Origin: Chryseolinea lacunae
GTDB taxonomy: Bacteria; Bacteroidota; Bacteroidia; Cytophagales; Cyclobacteriaceae
DNA length: 64,000 nucleotides
NCBI RefSeq assembly: GCF_016735595.1
Contig: NZ_JAERRB010000001.1
Location: 186,001-250,000, forward strand
Direction of reading: 5' to 3'
Shown in pieces: positions 7,946 to 19,735 of the stretch. The notes under the pieces were generated by a model. That model did no database searches and was not told where the DNA came from. It was given only the letters and a program-made list of their open reading frames with translations. Within the stretch, counting starts at the first letter, position 1; each line of letters opens with the position of its first letter. A program made the position numbers and the translations under genes.

Positions 7946-10261
7946 TCAAACTTTTGTGATGGATTCCTCCATGTTATAGATGGTGTGCACCACTTGCATG
8001 AGGGCGGCAAGCGAGGCTACGTCGGTGATGTTCGCAAAGGGATACTCTCCTGCGTTGATATATTGCTTCGCCTTTTCGGGCGAGGCCTCAAAAACTTTTT
8101 TCTCGTCGTCGAAATAGGTCATCAGGATTTTCAGTTCTTCCGCTTTCGGATTGCGCGCCACGATGGCACGGAAGGCGGTCACTGTTTTTTGTTCGACTGT
8201 TGATTTTTCCTGTAACAGTTTTTCGGCAAACACGCGCGCCGATTCCAGCACCACAGGGTCGTTCATGAGCACCAGGGCTTGCAACGGTGTGTTTGTGCGC
8301 AGGCGTTTCACTTCGCACTGGTCGCGGTTGCTGCCGTCGAACACCAGCATGCTGGGTGGCGGCACGGTGCGCTTGATGAAACAATAGAGGCCGCGGCGAT
8401 ATAGTTTATCGCCGTGATCCTGCACGTAGCGCGCCAGCACACCCCTGCCCGATGTTGACGATTCCCAGATGCCTTTGGGCTGATAGGGTTTTATGCTGGG
8501 ACCGCCGATGTCTTTGGTGAGCAGGCCACTGCTGGCCAGCGCCATGTCGCGCACGTTTTCGGCCGACATGCGGGCACGGGTGCTGTGCGACAACAAAATG
8601 TTTTCGGGATCGGTGGCCAGTTTCTTCGGGCTCACCACCGACGACTGTCGATAGGCGGCCGATGTCACAAACTGTTTCAGGAGGCGCTTCACGTCCCATC
8701 CGTTGTTCACAAAATCCAGGGCCAGCCAGTCCAGCAGTTCGGGATGCGATGGCATTTCGCCTTGCATGCCGAAGTCGCCGGCGGTTTTCACGAGGCCGCG
8801 ACCAAAAAATTCCTGCCACATGCGGTTCACAAACACACGGGCCGTGAGCGGGTTCTTCTTGTCGGTGAGCCAGCGGGCAAGGCCAAGCCGGTTGTTGCCA
8901 TAGACGGTGGAGTCGAATGGCATGATGGCCTTGGGCAATCCAACGGACACCCTATCGCCGTGTGCGTCATAAACACCACGCTTCAGGATGTAGGTGGGGC
9001 GTTTTGCCGGCGCGTCTTTCATGATCATGACCGGCACCGCGGCGGTGTCTTTCTTATTGATGAAGGTTAGAATCTTTTCAACATCGGCCGTGCTGATTTT
9101 CATGTTGGGCGGATCGGCCAGCGACGCCAGCGTGATGTCGCCCACAAGGCCTTTCTCGGGCACCTGATTAAAGAAGGAGAATGTGCTGTAATAGTCCTGT
9201 TGCAGGATGGGATCGTATTTGTGATCGTGGCACTTGGCACATTCGAACGTGAGCGCCAGAAATGCCTTGCCGAACGTGTTGGTGCGGTCGGTCACATATT
9301 CCACGCGATATTCTTCGTCGATAACGCCTCCCTCCTGCGTGATCTTGTGATTACGGTTGAAGCCGGTGGCCAGCAGTTGTTCTTTTGTGGGGTTTGGCAA
9401 CAGGTCGCCGGCCAGCTGCCAGGTGATGAACCGATCGTAGGGATAGTTGGCGTTGAAGGCGTGGATGACCCAGTCGCGCCACGGCCACATGGTGCGCAGG
9501 CCGTCGTCCTGGTAGCCGTGCGAGTCGGCATAGCGCGCGACGTCCATCCAGTACGTTGCCATCTTCTCGCCATATTGCGGTTGTGCCAGCAATTCGTCTA
9601 CCACGTGGGCATAGGCGTCGGGCGAAGCGTCGGCCATAAACTTGTCTTGCAGGGCGAGCGACGGTGGCAGGCCGGTCAGGTCAAAGCTCACGCGTTTGAG
9701 GAGGCGTTCCTTGTCGGCCTCTTCGTTTGGCTCCAGGCCGTTGGCTTCAAGCTTTGCGAGGATGAACTGATCGATTTCGTTGTGACCCCACGCCGTGTTC
9801 TCCACGTCGGGTGGCGGTGTGCTCTTCGGTGGAATAAATGCCCAGTGCGGTTTGTATTTCGCACCTTGCTCGATCCATTTTTTGATGAGCGCAATTTCGT
9901 GCTCATTAATTTTGAGATTGGATTTCACGGGGGGCATCACCTCGGCGGTGTCGGTGGTGACAAGGCGGAGATAGACTTCCGATTTTGCCGGATCGCCGGG
10001 CAAAATGGCATGGGCCGAGGGATTGTCTTTCAGCGCGGCCATGGCACCTTCGGGGGTGTCGAGCCGCAAATGTGCTTTGCGCTGATTGGCGTCCGGGCCG
10101 TGACATTTGAAGCAGCGGTCTGACAGAATGGGGCGGATGTGCAGGTTGTAGTCAACAGAATCCGACACGTGCGCCGTTGTGCGTTTTTCGCTGCACGAAA
10201 GGTTGAGCATTGCCGGAATGAGGAGGGTCATTGCTGCTGCTGAAAAAGTTTTTCTTTTCAT
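7946..10261 (-). CDS. DUF1549/DUF1553 protein with planctomycete cytochrome c (PSCyt1) domain
   Basis: First gene of the cassette, 771 residues. Start ATG 10261 (MKRKTFS) gives a clean basic-hydrophobic leader ending near LNLSC23. That may be a lipoprotein site, although Asn at -3 is not canonical. A first haem motif CFKCH is at 50-54 in PSCyt1, followed by DUF1549 with a second conserved CAKCH in the segment [16 protein letters not shown]1553 makes up the C-terminal half ([28 protein letters not shown]). So it appears to be a dihaem, exported protein. The family is abundant in polysaccharide-degrading Planctomycetes and Bacteroidota and has no proven reaction. Confidence 0.9.
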
Positions 10262-10344
10262 GGCATTCAATGAAGTGGTCTAAAGGTTGAATTTTATTTT
10301 GAAACACTCAAACCCTTTCGGGTAAAAAATGTTAAGTGAAATGT

Positions 10345-13951: not shown

Positions 13952-15226
13952 TTAACGCAAGGCCTGGTAGACACTGATTCTGAATTTATGGACAAGGTCG
14001 CTGTAGTGCGCATAGGGTTCCACGTTGGTAAACACCAAAAGGATCAGGTTTTCTTTGGGGTCGATGGTGTATTCGGAGCAATACATGCCACCCCAGGTGA
14101 GCGAGCCCGTGCTGGCGTTGTCGCTGTAGCGGCTTTGTTCGGTCATGATCTGGAGGCCAAGGCCAAATTTATCCTGGCGCGTCCACACGTCCGACGAGCC
14201 GATCTGGTTTCGGAACATCATCTCCACCGTTTTTCGTCCGAGGATCTGACGATTGTTGAAGCGGCCGAAGTTGAGGAGCATCTGGCAGAATTTTGCATAG
14301 TCCTCCACCGAGCTGATGAGGCCCGCGCCGGCCGAGAAGTAAGTTCTGGCGCCCGTGGTGGCAAAGAAGCGATAGTCGTTGTTGGCGCTCACCACCAGGG
14401 GCTTGTCGGCCCACTGCTTTGAATAGAGCTCCACCAGGCGACCGGCTTTGTCGGCTGGCAGATAGAAGTAGGTGTCGTTCATGCCAAGCGGGGCGGTGAC
14501 GGCCTCCTTCAAATACACATCAAGTTTTTTGCCGCTGAGAATTTCGATGAGGTAGCCGATCACGTCGGTGTTCAGTCCATACACAAATTTTTCGCCGGGA
14601 TCGGCAATGAGTGGACGGGCGGCAATTTTTTTCACCACATCGGCCAGCACGTCGGGTTGGGTTGAGTTGAAGAAGGGAACCTTGAAGGCGGGCAGCTTGT
14701 CGAGCGGATGTTCGTAGGGTATGCCGGCCGAGTGGCTCAGCAGCTGACGAATGGTGATCTCGCTTTTTGCAGGACGCGTTTCATAGTTGCCCGTGACCGC
14801 ATCAAAACTTTCGAGCACACGTGGTGCCTTGAACTCGGGAATGTATTTGCTGATGGGATCGTCTAACAAAAATTTGCCTTGTTCAAAAAGCGTCATCAGT
14901 GCCACGGTGGCAATGGCTTTGCTTTGGGAGGCGATGCGAAACAGGTCGTCTTTCTGAAGCGGCGTTTTGGTTTCGAGGTTGCGATAGCCATAGCCTTTGT
15001 AGGACACCACTTTTCCGTTGCGCGCCACAAACACGGCCACGTTGGGCGCCAGGCCTTCGGCCACGAAGCTTTGCATGAGCGCATCAAGACGCTGCAGGCG
15101 CTCGACGCTGAAGCCGGCATCTTCCGGCGATTTGATGGCTGAAAAGGACTGGGGCGACAGTTGCGCGTTTGCCTGAACGAGAACGGCCAGCATCATGACC
15201 AGCCAAAACCTGACTTGTAGTTTCAT
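13952..15226 (-). CDS. Exported serine hydrolase, beta-lactamase/EstB-like
   Basis: A 424-residue protein with a signal peptide (MKLQVRFWLV...ANAQ). The catalytic motif is SQSK (S100/K103). The general base tyrosine lies in FVYGLNTD (Y215), a Y-x-L arrangement like that of EstB-type esterases rather than Y-A-N of class C beta-lactamases. ATG 15226 is selected because the upstream in-frame TTG at 15247 gives no better leader. It is immediately followed by the M20 amidohydrolase (TAATG junction). The two may jointly process an external amide or peptide substrate, which is inference only. Confidence 0.86.
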   Translation of the reverse strand: MKLQVRFWLVMMLAVLVQANAQLSPQSFSAIKSPEDAGFSVERLQRLDALMQSFVAEGLAPNVAVFVARNGKVVSYKGYGYRNLETKTPLQKDDLFRIASQSKAIATVALMTLFEQGKFLLDDPISKYIPEFKAPRVLESFDAVTGNYETRPAKSEITIRQLLSHSAGIPYEHPLDKLPAFKVPFFNSTQPDVLADVVKKIAARPLIADPGEKFVYGLNTDVIGYLIEILSGKKLDVYLKEAVTAPLGMNDTYFYLPADKAGRLVELYSKQWADKPLVVSANNDYRFFATTGARTYFSAGAGLISSVEDYAKFCQMLLNFGRFNNRQILGRKTVEMMFRNQIGSSDVWTRQDKFGLGLQIMTEQSRYSDNASTGSLTWGGMYCSEYTIDPKENLILLVFTNVEPYAHYSDLVHKFRISVYQALR

Positions 15227-15337
15227 GGGGTTGCGATAGGATTTCAAAGATAAACGAAAACCGTTCGGTGCATCTACCGCCGGTCATATACCGGAGACAC
15301 TTATCCTTAAAATCTCATCGACCCCACCCGGGCAATG

Positions 15338-18300
15338 TTATTCCTTTATTTTCGCTCCCGACCCAAACAAACCACCAAACTTAGAGAGCAAGCCCAGCGC
15401 GCTTCCCAACGCAATGAGGAAGGTGTTGAGATTATTGAAGAGTTGCTTTTGTGCGACGGCAATGAACACCACTATGCCCATAAGCCCCAACACCAGCACA
15501 AGCCGTATGCTGTGCCATGTGCCTTTGTTCTGCACAACTTTTTCGATGTGTTCTTCGTCTTCGGCGTCGAAGGCATTGAGCACAAAATTATTGAAGCTCT
15601 CGTTGAAGACGCGTAATGTTCCATCGTTGCGCACGATGCCTTTTTGCATGAGCATCCGCAGCGTCTTTTGATCTTTGAGGTTCACCACACCGTCTTTGGC
15701 CAGATCGAACAACAGGAATTTTTCGGCTTGTGAAAGCGCATTCCACACGGCCTCATAATAGGGCTCCACAGTTTCTTCCACGTTCAGAATAAAATCATCC
15801 TCCTCCGGCAAGGCCGGTTTAAAATCGGCATTTGAAAATTGGGAGAGATAGAAACACGACAGAAGTTCGTTGCAGGCCTTCTGCGATTTAACGCCGGCTC
15901 CCTTTCGCAAACTTATCTCGCGCACTTCGTCGGGTGTCGGGCAAATGGATTTGAAGGCCACCTCAAAATGCCCCAACACGCTTTTCCAATTGCGCAGGGC
16001 AATTTTATATTCCGCTATCAAATCGCTGCTGCCTTTGTCTTTATCCGTCGCCGCGCCGTTTTCTTCACCGGACTGGCAACGTGCAATTTTCTTGTGATAG
16101 AATTCAAAAAGTGCACCGGGCGGAACAGACGACGTGATGATGATTTTGATGTCCGTTTTTTTTGTGATCAGTGCCTGCAGAAAGCCAAGCTTCTTTTGAT
16201 TGAACGCATGATCGTTAAGGCCGTACTCGAAATGCTGAACAATAATGATTCGGTGCGGAAGGAAATGCGCAAACGTTCCGGCCCGGCAATTCACGAGGTC
16301 GATATCATTGCGAATGGCAAACGCACCCCGAATGGCCTTGTTCACTTCCGAACCCGGCAAGCCCACCACAAACACGCGGTCGGCGCCATCGACCGGTTGT
16401 TTGATCCGTTCCAGCAGCTCGTTAAACTTCTTTTTGTCGCTCGCCATGTCGCCAGGCAAAAGACCGGTTCCAAAAATGTACTTCACGCAAATGCGGATAA
16501 CATTGATGATGAGCAAAAGAAAAAGCACAATAAACAACGTCACACCAATGCCATAGAAAACGCCGGCCGGTCTGAACGTTGGAATAAGATTTACTTTGCT
16601 CGACTCCTGGTGCAATCCCCGGCGCGGGTCATGGTTGTAGACGAGCTCAATCGTTTCGCCCGAGGGCGATGAATTCCAGCGCCACTTCCGGTCGTCGGCC
16701 TCCTTGAATGCACCGGCGCTGGAGGCACCGAGCGCGCCCGTGATGCGTGGCCAGAACTCAAAAAGCAAACGCTGAATCGGCGCATCACGCCACTCGGCAC
16801 CACGCTCCGCTCCGTTGAACGGCAAACGCGACGGCGACTGATAGACACCCGCCTGGTCGATGTGATCGCGTAGTGCTACCGGCACCCCTGGTGCACTGAA
16901 TTCCTTTTGAACATAGTCGAATTGTTTCAGACGCACATCCTCGCGTTCGGCTTCAAGCAACTGCATGTAGCGTGTCCACACGATGCCTTCTTCACGATAC
17001 GACAACCGGTAGAAATAGGTGACCGGAAGAATGCTGACCAGCGTGAGCCAGAACATGAGCACGCGGGGATAATAGTATGTGCCGTCTATGTCTTTGGAAT
17101 TGGGGCCTCGGGCAGCTTTTCGTATCCACCGAGTTTTGGCCTTATACCAGTCAACAATATCCTGCAACACTTCTGATCGTATCTGCATCGCCATCACAAC
17201 CAGAAACGCTGCTGTTGCTATTTGCAGCAGGAAACCCATCGGAGCATTGTCCCACACGGGAAACGTGATGTAGTCGAACAGCATGATCAACGCCGCGCTC
17301 AACAGCGCAAAGATTATTTTCTTTCCCTGCGTGATCTCACTCATCACGAATGTGTGAAACACCAAGAGCATAACCGGAAGCACCACGAACCAGATACCCA
17401 TCACCACGTTGGGTGTCACACAAATCAGCACCATGGAAGCGACAAATATAACAGCTTGGGTCACAATGCCCCTGCAATAGACATCGTCTTTGTTTTCGGC
17501 CGGGAAAAGCCAGCGAAGCACAAAGGGTTTGAATTTTAGTTTGGTGGTGCTGCTGGCGCAGAGGAGCAACATGAACAACTGCACGCCCTGAATGATGAAG
17601 AGCAGCATCAGAAAAAAGAACGCAAAGAATATGGTGAGCACAATGGGCGTGCGCTGAAAATCTTCATTGTGAAACACCACAAGGTGAAGCGGAATGTTAT
17701 CGATGGGCTGAACATACATGCGGCCCGGACAACCATCATACTCCGTCGACAGGAAAGCGGACGAGCGACCGGCAATGGCAGCCGTCAGTTTTTTCTGCCG
17801 GTCGGCCTCCAGCAAAATATTTTCCTGGTGATTTTTAAACGTGGTGGAGTGAAACCAGACTTCACCCGTCTCGTCAATGAGGCAGAAGCCATAGCCCGGC
17901 GGTAGCATGGGATCCATGATGGAGTGCAGACGCGTAGACATAGCCAACACCTTTTCGGCATGCCCATCGCCGAGCCGAATGCCAAAGCCTGCTTCTGGAG
18001 TGTGATCCGTCCACGACTGAATGGACTGCAGCGCGAACCTGCGTGTGGGGTCGATGCCCCGGGCGCCGTCTTTCGGGGGCAAATACCAGAGGCTGTCGCC
18101 CATGGCCCACCGATAGTATTTCCGGTTTTTCACATTGGGCATAGGATAGTCGGGCTTCACACTTTTGGTGGTGACCGAGATGATTGGGTTGCCCGCATCA
18201 TTCACCCAGATAATAAAATTGAAGTAGGGAAAAAACCGAAGGGGCTTTACCTTGAAGATATCCCACACTTTTCCATCGCGCGGCTTCAATTCACCTTCGG

Positions 18301-19735
18301 GGCCAACGGTGTCAGCAGCTTCAGCGCTCGACCAGGGTTTGAGAAAATTGCCATACAGCACCGTTTGCATTTCCCTATCCCTGGGATTTGGATTGGCTTT
18401 TTTATCCGCCGTGTCCAGTTCTTCACGATGTTTGATCAACAAGGGTGATTGGTTGACCTGAACGTCCTGTAGCTGATCGTAGATGGCATTCAGCTCGCGT
18501 TGAAATCTTGTCTTGACCTGATCGGAAAGACTCCTCAGTTCCAGGTCTACCCGACCTTTCGATTGCAGATTGTCGGTGGTGGACCACAGGATGAGAAACA
18601 TAACGGCGCTTCCAAACACAATGCAAAAGCCGGCAAACCAAACATTCATGAGGCTGAGTCGCTCGAAGGTGTTCATGAACAACAGCTTCAGCACCGGCAT
18701 GCTCATCAACAGAAATAACACCACCAGAATGGCCACCGTAATGACCAGGGGATCGACTGCTCGAACCACGTCGTTATAGTTCTCTGCCTTTGTTAGTCCG
18801 CAAAGCATCCAGCTTTCGTCGGGGGCGAACTGAATGGTGTGCACAAACATTTTATAGGTGGCATCCGCCAGCGTGATCTCGCAGAAACGTGTGGTCAGCA
18901 GTCCCCGTTGTGTCACCAGCAACGAATCGATGTTCTGAAGATCGATGCGGTTCTCGAAGGTTTGATAGGTTTCATCGGCCGACATCAAGGGGTCCTTGTC
19001 ATGACCATGTGTAGACTCGTCATATCTTTTGATGATGACAAATTCATCAAACGCATTGGGCTTGTAGGCGAAGTCGGTGGTGGCGATGCTGAACACGCCA
19101 ACCCTGTCGGGGCGTCTGAACGATGGGAAGGAAAAGTAAATGCTGTCGAAGTGTGTATGAACAAGATCCTGCAGCGACTTTTTGTCCATGAAATTATTGT
19201 AGCGCACTTTTGGCAAATCGTTTTGCACAATGGCCTTGATTTTTTTTCGAACCCGAGCACCGTACCGTTTCCAGAAATCGGCCTCCTTGCTAGTGTCGGT
19301 TTGTAACGTTTTGAGGATATCGTTTTGGAGCTCGTCCAGTTTTTTTGAAATCTGGTAAGTATCGTTGCACGAGTCGCAGGTATTGTCGTGCACCAGTGCT
19401 TGAATCCTCGCCAGTTCGGTTTGTTTGTCGCGTGTAACAATCTGTTGAAGTTCCTTCAGCGACGCCTCCCGTTTTGCTTTGTCTTTTTCGTTGCGGGCAA
19501 ACTCCTTCAATATTTTCTCGCGGCTGAACCACGTTTTGCGAATGGCATTCTCGTAGTCACGGCGTGTGTTCAGCATGTTTTGTCCATACCGTGCCAACGC
19601 CCTGTATTTTTCTTCGCGCAGTTTATCTTCGCGTCCTGCCACATACACCAGCAGGTAATATGAAAAGAACGCACCGATCACAAGCAAGGTGGTCAGGGCC
19701 ACCCAGAAGCGATGATTCAGGGTTGGTAATTTCAT
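15338..19735 (-). CDS. Giant multi-pass Cache-domain protein with degenerate P-loop NTPase and winged-helix module
   Basis: A 1465-residue protein, family not recognised as a whole. Membrane helix at 12-31. First extracytoplasmic region, coiled-coil rich, at 35-328. Helices at about 329-353 and 364-386. A double-Cache-like sensor spans about 390-690 (IIWVNDAGNPIIS, NRKYYRWAMGD, GFCLIDETGEVWFHS). Helices follow at 698-725, 760-795, 806-850 and 891-910, then another loop domain at 915-1055 and a helix at 1060-1085. A cytosolic module at 1115-1395 resembles a STAND-like NTPase: RVFVVGLPGSEVN lacks the Walker A lysine, IIIVQHFEYG sits at Walker B, IKIIITSSVPP at sensor 1. A winged helix follows (LSQAEKFLLFDLAKDG, 1334-1349), then a final helix pair at 1409-1455. 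It stands alone transcriptionally and may sense an external ligand. Confidence 0.7.
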   Translation of the reverse strand: MKLPTLNHRFWVALTTLLVIGAFFSYYLLVYVAGREDKLREEKYRALARYGQNMLNTRRDYENAIRKTWFSREKILKEFARNEKDKAKREASLKELQQIVTRDKQTELARIQALVHDNTCDSCNDTYQISKKLDELQNDILKTLQTDTSKEADFWKRYGARVRKKIKAIVQNDLPKVRYNNFMDKKSLQDLVHTHFDSIYFSFPSFRRPDRVGVFSIATTDFAYKPNAFDEFVIIKRYDESTHGHDKDPLMSADETYQTFENRIDLQNIDSLLVTQRGLLTTRFCEITLADATYKMFVHTIQFAPDESWMLCGLTKAENYNDVVRAVDPLVITVAILVVLFLLMSMPVLKLLFMNTFERLSLMNVWFAGFCIVFGSAVMFLILWSTTDNLQSKGRVDLELRSLSDQVKTRFQRELNAIYDQLQDVQVNQSPLLIKHREELDTADKKANPNPRDREMQTVLYGNFLKPWSSAEAADTVGPEGELKPRDGKVWDIFKVKPLRFFPYFNFIIWVNDAGNPIISVTTKSVKPDYPMPNVKNRKYYRWAMGDSLWYLPPKDGARGIDPTRRFALQSIQSWTDHTPEAGFGIRLGDGHAEKVLAMSTRLHSIMDPMLPPGYGFCLIDETGEVWFHSTTFKNHQENILLEADRQKKLTAAIAGRSSAFLSTEYDGCPGRMYVQPIDNIPLHLVVFHNEDFQRTPIVLTIFFAFFFLMLLFIIQGVQLFMLLLCASSTTKLKFKPFVLRWLFPAENKDDVYCRGIVTQAVIFVASMVLICVTPNVVMGIWFVVLPVMLLVFHTFVMSEITQGKKIIFALLSAALIMLFDYITFPVWDNAPMGFLLQIATAAFLVVMAMQIRSEVLQDIVDWYKAKTRWIRKAARGPNSKDIDGTYYYPRVLMFWLTLVSILPVTYFYRLSYREEGIVWTRYMQLLEAEREDVRLKQFDYVQKEFSAPGVPVALRDHIDQAGVYQSPSRLPFNGAERGAEWRDAPIQRLLFEFWPRITGALGASSAGAFKEADDRKWRWNSSPSGETIELVYNHDPRRGLHQESSKVNLIPTFRPAGVFYGIGVTLFIVLFLLLIINVIRICVKYIFGTGLLPGDMASDKKKFNELLERIKQPVDGADRVFVVGLPGSEVNKAIRGAFAIRNDIDLVNCRAGTFAHFLPHRIIIVQHFEYGLNDHAFNQKKLGFLQALITKKTDIKIIITSSVPPGALFEFYHKKIARCQSGEENGAATDKDKGSSDLIAEYKIALRNWKSVLGHFEVAFKSICPTPDEVREISLRKGAGVKSQKACNELLSCFYLSQFSNADFKPALPEEDDFILNVEETVEPYYEAVWNALSQAEKFLLFDLAKDGVVNLKDQKTLRMLMQKGIVRNDGTLRVFNESFNNFVLNAFDAEDEEHIEKVVQNKGTWHSIRLVLVLGLMGIVVFIAVAQKQLFNNLNTFLIALGSALGLLSKFGGLFGSGAKIKE

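Follow-up and report, generated by a model that had tools for sequence, protein, structure and literature searches.

A predicted dCache transmembrane receptor with a STAND-like pseudo-NTPase and winged helix in Chryseolinea lacunae

A stretch of 64,000 nucleotides from Chryseolinea lacunae (contig NZ_JAERRB010000001.1, positions 186,001 to 250,000; here called the window and numbered from its first base) includes a reverse-strand gene for a protein of 1465 residues. We lean, if only slightly, towards reading this protein as a transmembrane receptor whose output is a switch made of a pseudo-nucleoside triphosphatase (pseudo-NTPase) and a winged helix, tied to the membrane at both ends. The architecture, the predicted fold, the loss of catalytic residues and its recurrence among relatives, and the constraint on the winged helix are borne out by computation. 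A first-pass annotation, made from the sequence of the window alone, had described a giant Cache-type membrane sensor with a degenerate STAND-like NTPase, and the suggestion made there, that the inside module would relay a signal from outside, is kept here in conditional form.

Predicted architecture of the receptor

The gene and the parts of its product are as follows.

15338-19735, reverse strand: receptor gene, 1465 residues, ATG start (open reading frame listing and homologues)
18761-19642, reverse strand: extracytoplasmic region 1, residues ~32-325, a beta-rich part preceded by the long helices that follow membrane helix 1 (model and hydropathy)
17651-18574, reverse strand: dCache sensor region, the second extracytoplasmic region, residues ~388-695 (Pfam, Foldseek and model)
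17189-17488, reverse strand: four-helix membrane block, transmembrane helices (TM) 5-8, residues ~750-849, after TM4 at ~692-727 (model and hydropathy)
16565-17002, reverse strand: extracytoplasmic region 3, residues ~912-1057, lying between TM9 and TM10 and made up of a helix and a small beta part (model and hydropathy)
15950-16393, reverse strand: core with a P-loop NTPase fold, residues ~1115-1262 (AlphaFold and Foldseek)
15560-15784, reverse strand: winged helix, residues ~1318-1392, conserved more strongly than any other part measured (model)
15365-15517, reverse strand: C-terminal pair of membrane helices, residues ~1407-1457 (model and hydropathy)

Residues 1-1089 were modelled with AlphaFold from 61 sequences (mean predicted local distance difference test score, pLDDT, 77.1; predicted template modelling score, pTM, 0.79), and the model shows a two-lobed Cache fold on a long helix that is continuous with a membrane helix. 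The double-Cache-like region of the first-pass annotation is also found by Pfam, as a match of dCache_1 (PF02743) to residues 399-687 with an E value of 1.1e-5 and a score of 25.6 bits, which is below the Pfam cut-off of 45 bits. Of the 61 members, 44 were scanned for this domain, the window protein among them, and 20 matched it at E<=1e-3 (best 3.4e-14). When the model was submitted to Foldseek, the names of the best 50 of 533 matches all denoted chemoreceptor models or sensor domains of the Cache type; that listing gives no matched residues, and the placing of the dCache at 399-687 comes from Pfam. Foldseek matches of this outside part include PctB, PscC, an Aeromonas cyclase, McpH, Tlp3, DctB and Mlp24 (E values 2.6e-5 to 1.2e-4). 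A PDB sequence search with the window protein alone gave nothing of use, and a PDB profile search with the outside part found two designed proteins at 0.007 and, more weakly, two Cache-type sensors at 0.048 and 0.062.

The many membrane helices noted earlier amount to approximately 12, two of them after the winged helix, when the model is combined with hydropathy averaged over 85 aligned relatives (13 stretches, with two pairs merged and one stretch split). The 85-row set was drawn from 117 distinct frames by keeping those of at least 1180 amino acids (aa) and removing L003, L005, L006 and L014, which left 87, and then two near-duplicates. The extracytoplasmic regions number three, not two as first proposed. 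Region 1 is in part of low confidence, with pLDDT <50 at residues 169-223 and in shorter stretches. The sidedness of all of these parts would follow from the helix count.

The first-pass annotation had called for a structure prediction of the C-terminal region, and an AlphaFold model of residues 1085-1465 (mean pLDDT 84.6, pTM 0.81) gives a P-loop fold with a winged helix C-terminal to it. The model begins with the core, in which strands alternate with helices, and continues through a helical segment into the winged helix and its hairpin (helices within 1312-1348, a helix at 1356-1364 and the hairpin at 1368-1376); the last two helices are identified by hydropathy as membrane helices. The top Foldseek matches of this model were RuvB (1.6e-4), a DNA replication regulator (2.3e-4), PABY2304 (2.5e-4) and FtsH (2.6e-4), followed by the plant NLR RPP1 (2.9e-4), Hda (3.2e-4) and Avs4 (5e-4), with ORC and DnaA lower down. 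The query TM-scores are low, 0.23-0.34 for the best matches and 0.18-0.35 among the matches listed, and the clade of the core is therefore not fixed by structure.

Nor do sequence profiles place the core in one clade. The hhalign probabilities were 8.7 against nSTAND1, 10.4 against DnaA and 3.9 against ABC (comparison sets from which two wrong-strand DnaA frames were omitted and seven too-short loci skipped). Single-member Pfam matches among the 61 members are weak (nSTAND3 in 2/61, best 2.6e-4; nSTAND1 in 3/61, best 0.0019; Bac_DnaA in 4/61, best 6.6e-4), and those to STAND profiles are weak evidence because unrelated families match as many members at like E values. AAA_22 lies over the P-loop of one relative, L141, at 0.002, below its cut-off. 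A search with nSTAND3 gave one strong match (177 bits) with all others at or below 39 bits, and no profile was built from it; the inside part, used as a profile against the PDB, retrieved a single myosin chain at 0.025. The models support a predicted AAA+/STAND-type core with a winged helix, and here the earlier proposal stands. A STAND clade would fit the winged helix and the NLR and Avs4 matches better than another AAA+ clade, but is not settled by sequence profiles. Scans of the window protein with Pfam and NCBIfam found no standard output domain, as had been reported, and NCBIfam gave no match at all.

Nucleotide site and selection in relatives

Three elements of the nucleotide site can be located in the core.

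16340-16363, reverse strand: Walker A site GLPGSEVN, residues 1125-1132, canonical lysine lost
16223-16249, reverse strand: Walker B strand IIIVQHFEY, residues 1163-1171, with Q1167 in place of the aspartate and E1170 kept
16118-16144, reverse strand: sensor-1-like strand, residues 1198-1206, with S1202, a serine in 72/85 rows

The earlier reading by eye was accurate for the window protein, in that GLPGSEVN has no lysine at the canonical place (K1133 follows directly after it) and the Walker-B-like and sensor-1-like strands and winged helix are present in alignment and model. In the three relatives that have an intact Walker A, the motif is found at this position and not in another part of the protein. 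The expectation that the loss of the lysine would be conserved was not upheld. For the trees and alignment A3, the 85 rows were reduced to 79 by removing the badly aligned L040, L041, L044, L063, L102 and L113, and Walker A classes were assigned by counting in register from the position that aligns with G1125, place 7 being that of the lysine. GxxxxGK[ST] was found in three of the 79 rows, window included (L136, with the loop GLPGSGKS, L141 and L107), and GK or NK without S/T in 23. A further seven have a place-7 lysine without the preceding glycine, namely the same-genus sister L002 (loop GLPQSSKH), L031, L096, L036, L059, L084 and L104, the last two by residue count and not in the aligned column. 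GR is present in two rows, and neither lysine nor GR in 44, among them the window protein; with the six badly aligned rows added, the counts are 3, 23, 7, 2 and 50 of 85. Among the three intact rows, a Walker B aspartate is found in L107 at the aligned place and in L136 one place on, and 17 of the 23 GK/NK rows have N at the Walker B place. Judged from these sequences, catalytic loss is recurrent, not family-wide.

Two observations on single groups may be added. L107, from an Acidobacteriota metagenome bin, is the only one of the 85 rows with both an intact Walker A and an aspartate at the aligned Walker B place, and could represent an ancestor-like form, a gene transfer or a binning error. 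Ten rows that form one tree group (L034, L035, L036, L115, L117, L119, L120, L137, L139 and L143) have, at the former P-loop, [LIV]D in the loop and a tryptophan farther on, which may mark a new function of the site.

The distribution of these states was examined on a tree of 79 rows with the Walker A columns removed (tree 1) and on one of 76 rows built under a mixture model, with L039, L042 and L116 also omitted (tree 2). The fewest state changes for GK/NK versus not were 8 on either tree, and for the place-7 lysine 13 on tree 1 and 12 on tree 2, versus 19 to 28 in 20 shuffles each. Hence, the Walker A states cluster yet change many times, with the limits that long branches make deep placements unsure and that change counts cannot separate loss from gain. 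The rows nearest to the window protein are L002, L136 (intact) and L134 and L052 (both GK). Because these keep the lysine, its loss in the window protein looks recent, if gain is deemed unlikely.

These counts bear on an alternative in which the core binds nucleotide without hydrolysing it, using either K1133 or the backbone of the loop in the window protein and the retained lysine in relatives, such that the receptor would read both an outside ligand and the nucleotide state of the cell. It is favoured by the place-7 lysine of 33/79 rows (26 of these GK/NK) and by a pattern of a phosphate loop kept and magnesium ligands gone, which is seen at the Walker B place described above and in 18 rows picked for their kept lysine. 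In these 18, where invariance of the lysine reflects the choice of rows and the tree clade of 23 that holds them has five rows without GK, the loop G, P and G do not vary and the S/T position is occupied by L (16) or M (2); the window protein itself keeps GLPGS. However, 44/79 rows, window included, have neither lysine nor arginine at place 7, and core evolution tends to be faster in members without GK. We rate this alternative as unlikely, though it deserves to be kept in mind.

Constraint on the parts was compared in sister pairs hand-picked from the 79-row tree, using the core distance relative to that of residues 1-1090. The median core ratio was 0.83 for the nine pairs with GK/NK retained and 1.35 for the 15 pairs without it (P=0.010 one-sided, 0.02 two-sided), a difference to which the poorer alignment of loop-less rows may itself contribute. 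The winged-helix ratio had medians of 0.20 and 0.24, or about one-fifth of the residue 1-1090 distance, whether loss was defined by GK/NK or by lysine alone. Ten pairs were counted by codon, with the synonymous rate (dS) saturated for the whole protein or a part in six of them. The ratio of nonsynonymous to synonymous rates (dN/dS) for the whole protein, core and winged helix was 0.08, 0.23 and 0.04 in the pair L002/L003 and 0.05, 0.05 and 0.01 in L137/L139. In seven of the eight pairs without GK the core dN/dS was 0.05-0.23 (dS >2 in three of the seven; the eighth pair was saturated), and thus the core is still under selection. The core is retained, and it is probably relaxed in the absence of GK, the latter depending on how loss is defined. 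At the level of sequence comparison, of all the parts measured the winged helix shows the strongest selection.

It could be argued that the core is merely decaying and functionless, with only the sensor and winged helix of importance. The relatively faster core in pairs without GK and the several rows with no recognisable loop are what this would predict, but the core dN/dS values and the confidently predicted core fold of the window protein speak against it, and we consider it very improbable.

The constraint on the winged helix is also relevant to a different role. CadC and ToxR represent families of membrane-bound one-component transcription regulators, and a receptor of that kind, with the winged helix on DNA, would have its sensor outside and a winged helix, here the most constrained part, inside. 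However, the net charge of the winged helix is near zero (mean 0.2, standard deviation 2.7, range -5 to 10 in 85 rows), membrane helices come after it, and the model matches proteins in which the winged helix follows a P-loop core. A DNA-binding regulator is accordingly an improbable explanation, and a pseudo-NTPase/winged-helix switch held at the membrane remains the reading that we prefer.

Family distribution and genomic setting

A single-sequence search found matches in 11/59 near-relative genomes, and profile searches found them in 89/295 genomes of the same family and in 7/395 genomes from across the phylum, the window's genome being counted in these figures; some of the matches, lying at the ends of contigs, are fragments. 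Among 295 genomes of the class (window's included), 11 carry the inside module, in frames of 1110-1476 aa with one exception of 715 aa. A scan of named genomes gave 70 loci, one in the Acidobacteriota metagenome bin and 69 in Bacteroidota (Sphingobacteriaceae 19, Spirosomataceae 10, Cyclobacteriaceae 7 and others, with 13 lacking a family rank). Going by these sequence matches, the receptor family is common near home and patchy elsewhere. Two tandem receptor matches lie on one contig (G541 contig C83; one of them is L142), and Chryseolinea serpens has a second, distant copy (L108). In L060, L074, L088, L109 and L142 the receptor is divided over two open frames, which represent broken genes or sequencing errors.

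The possibility that 15338-19735 is a chance open reading frame was ruled out. Two genomes of the same genus include frames of 1328 aa (L002 and L003) with 49-50 % identity across query residues 166-1465, and the conserved length of homologous frames and the purifying whole-protein dN/dS between these two exclude a chance frame. The giant frame proposed in the first-pass annotation is therefore real.

The gene adjoining the receptor gene on the same strand, 90 bases downstream at 13952-15247 (reverse strand), encodes a beta-lactamase-type serine hydrolase, and it is possible that the two are co-transcribed. A hydrolase of this type also adjoins the receptor gene in the same-genus loci L026 and L051. 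Other genes near the receptor in the window encode an M20 peptidase, a glycosyltransferase and a DUF885 protein, with lycopene cyclase and other metabolic genes farther away. The reverse-strand gene at 7946-10270 encodes a protein with PSCyt1, PSCyt2 and PSD1 domains, a planctomycete-type cytochrome family by Pfam name, here in a Bacteroidota genome. Across 75 loci there is no conserved gene neighbourhood beyond close kin. A shared gene family adjoins the receptor in three loci, directly upstream in L056 and L080 (396 and 392 aa) and downstream in L109 (120 aa), and is presumably patatin-like, judged by eye from a GGGxRG motif.

This setting is pertinent to whether the protein might act in defence or cell death in the manner of NLR and Avs proteins, with its two C-terminal membrane helices serving as a pore-type effector. 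The Foldseek matches to Avs4 and RPP1 and the two C-terminal helices would suit such a role, and inactive STAND modules are known in conflict systems, according to the parts available of PMC7159879 and PMC8195603. However, the window protein had no PADLOC match at E<=5 and its relatives only weak ones (best 0.0032, 4/61), no defence-type Pfam domain is present among the ten window neighbours scanned, and the sensors are predicted to face outside. A role in defence is thus improbable. The same ten neighbours include no MoxR or vWA domain.

Proposed switch and comparison with known systems

In the receptor that we favour, the dCache, and perhaps the two further extracytoplasmic domains, would bind small molecules outside the cell; ligand binding, sidedness, coupling and a partner are the steps that we infer. 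A ligand would shift the dCache and its helices, and the approximately 12 membrane helices would carry the change inward to an AAA+/STAND-type core and winged helix that are held to the membrane by TM10 before them and TM11-12 after them. The core of the window protein, as a pseudo-NTPase, would hardly be able to hydrolyse nucleotide, and we therefore propose that the switch is thrown by ligand-driven movement of the membrane helices. Given the tethers on either side, the proposal is that a helix shift opens or closes the contact between core and winged helix, and that the freed winged helix meets a partner protein. Nucleotide may still tune the switch in members that keep the lysine.

Several points weigh against this proposal. 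No ligand, partner, output or effector was found for the receptor. With the place-7 lysine kept in 33/79 rows, some members may still bind nucleotide. When loss is defined by lysine alone, the core ratios are 0.85 (10 pairs) versus 1.00 (13 pairs), with P=0.064 one-sided and 0.129 two-sided, and even by GK, 6/15 pairs without it have a core no faster than the rest. The unrelated E1-E2_ATPase profile matched 6/61 members (best 0.0031). No neighbour gene tracks the receptor family, the commonest neighbour family being in the flanks of 19/75 loci, so that the receptor apparently works by itself or with a partner whose gene lies at another locus.

More tentatively still, and with considerable doubt, the family might be viewed as a transmembrane counterpart of NLR-type switches, in which a chemical outside the cell throws the core and winged helix without any nucleotide cycle, and in which living species preserve the steps of NTPase loss (first the magnesium ligands, with GK still present, and afterwards the glycine, the lysine and the loop in turn) while the winged-helix output is kept. 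The joining of a dCache sensor to a switch without its catalytic residues would possibly be a new way of passing signals across the membrane. A STAND-like pseudo-NTPase would extend the short list of Cache outputs and link environmental receptors to an NLR-type switch. The extent to which the nucleotide site survives varies among relatives, even between members of a single genus, and the family therefore allows one to test whether such a switch needs nucleotide.

In the open-access literature, judged from titles and the openings of abstracts, we found no published report of an architecture that joins a dCache to a STAND-like core. The Cache superfamily is described as the largest of extracellular sensors in prokaryotes in a survey (PMC4822843), the available portion of which tables as outputs methyl-accepting chemotaxis proteins, histidine kinases, c-di-GMP enzymes, serine phosphatases, cyclases, Ser/Thr kinases, transcription factors and ion channels. 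The terms 'NTPase' and 'AAA' do not occur in PMC4822843. The window protein resembles dCache receptors (PctA/PctB, McpH, Tlp3 and histidine kinases) in its sensor fold and, in the model, in the long helix that runs on from a membrane helix. It differs in having a STAND-like pseudo-NTPase, whereas the outputs tabled in that portion of the survey include no NTPase.

STAND NTPases with a winged helix (the NLR RPP1, Avs4, and the Pfam families nSTAND1 and nSTAND3) share with it the P-loop core, the helices and the winged helix. However, catalytic residues are gone in most members here, a membrane tether on both sides is predicted, and kinship by profile is not established; the window protein also lacks the intact Walker A and Walker B by which STAND NTPases are recognised.

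The nearest precedent is provided by the iSTAND modules of ternary conflict systems. From what is accessible of PMC7159879 and PMC8195603, neither of which contains the term 'Cache', inactive STAND modules (iSTAND, Kaur and co-workers) have been proposed as invader-sensing components or nucleic acid receptors. Those systems have three components, with MoxR and vWA proteins, whereas here a single receptor carries a dCache and approximately 12 membrane helices, a distinction drawn from the description of those systems. The likeness is that iSTAND and iSTAND2 of the MoxR-vWA ternary systems are, in the same accessible text, STAND-type modules described as catalytically inactive and found in Bacteroidetes, and that a subset of these systems is said to work near the membrane.

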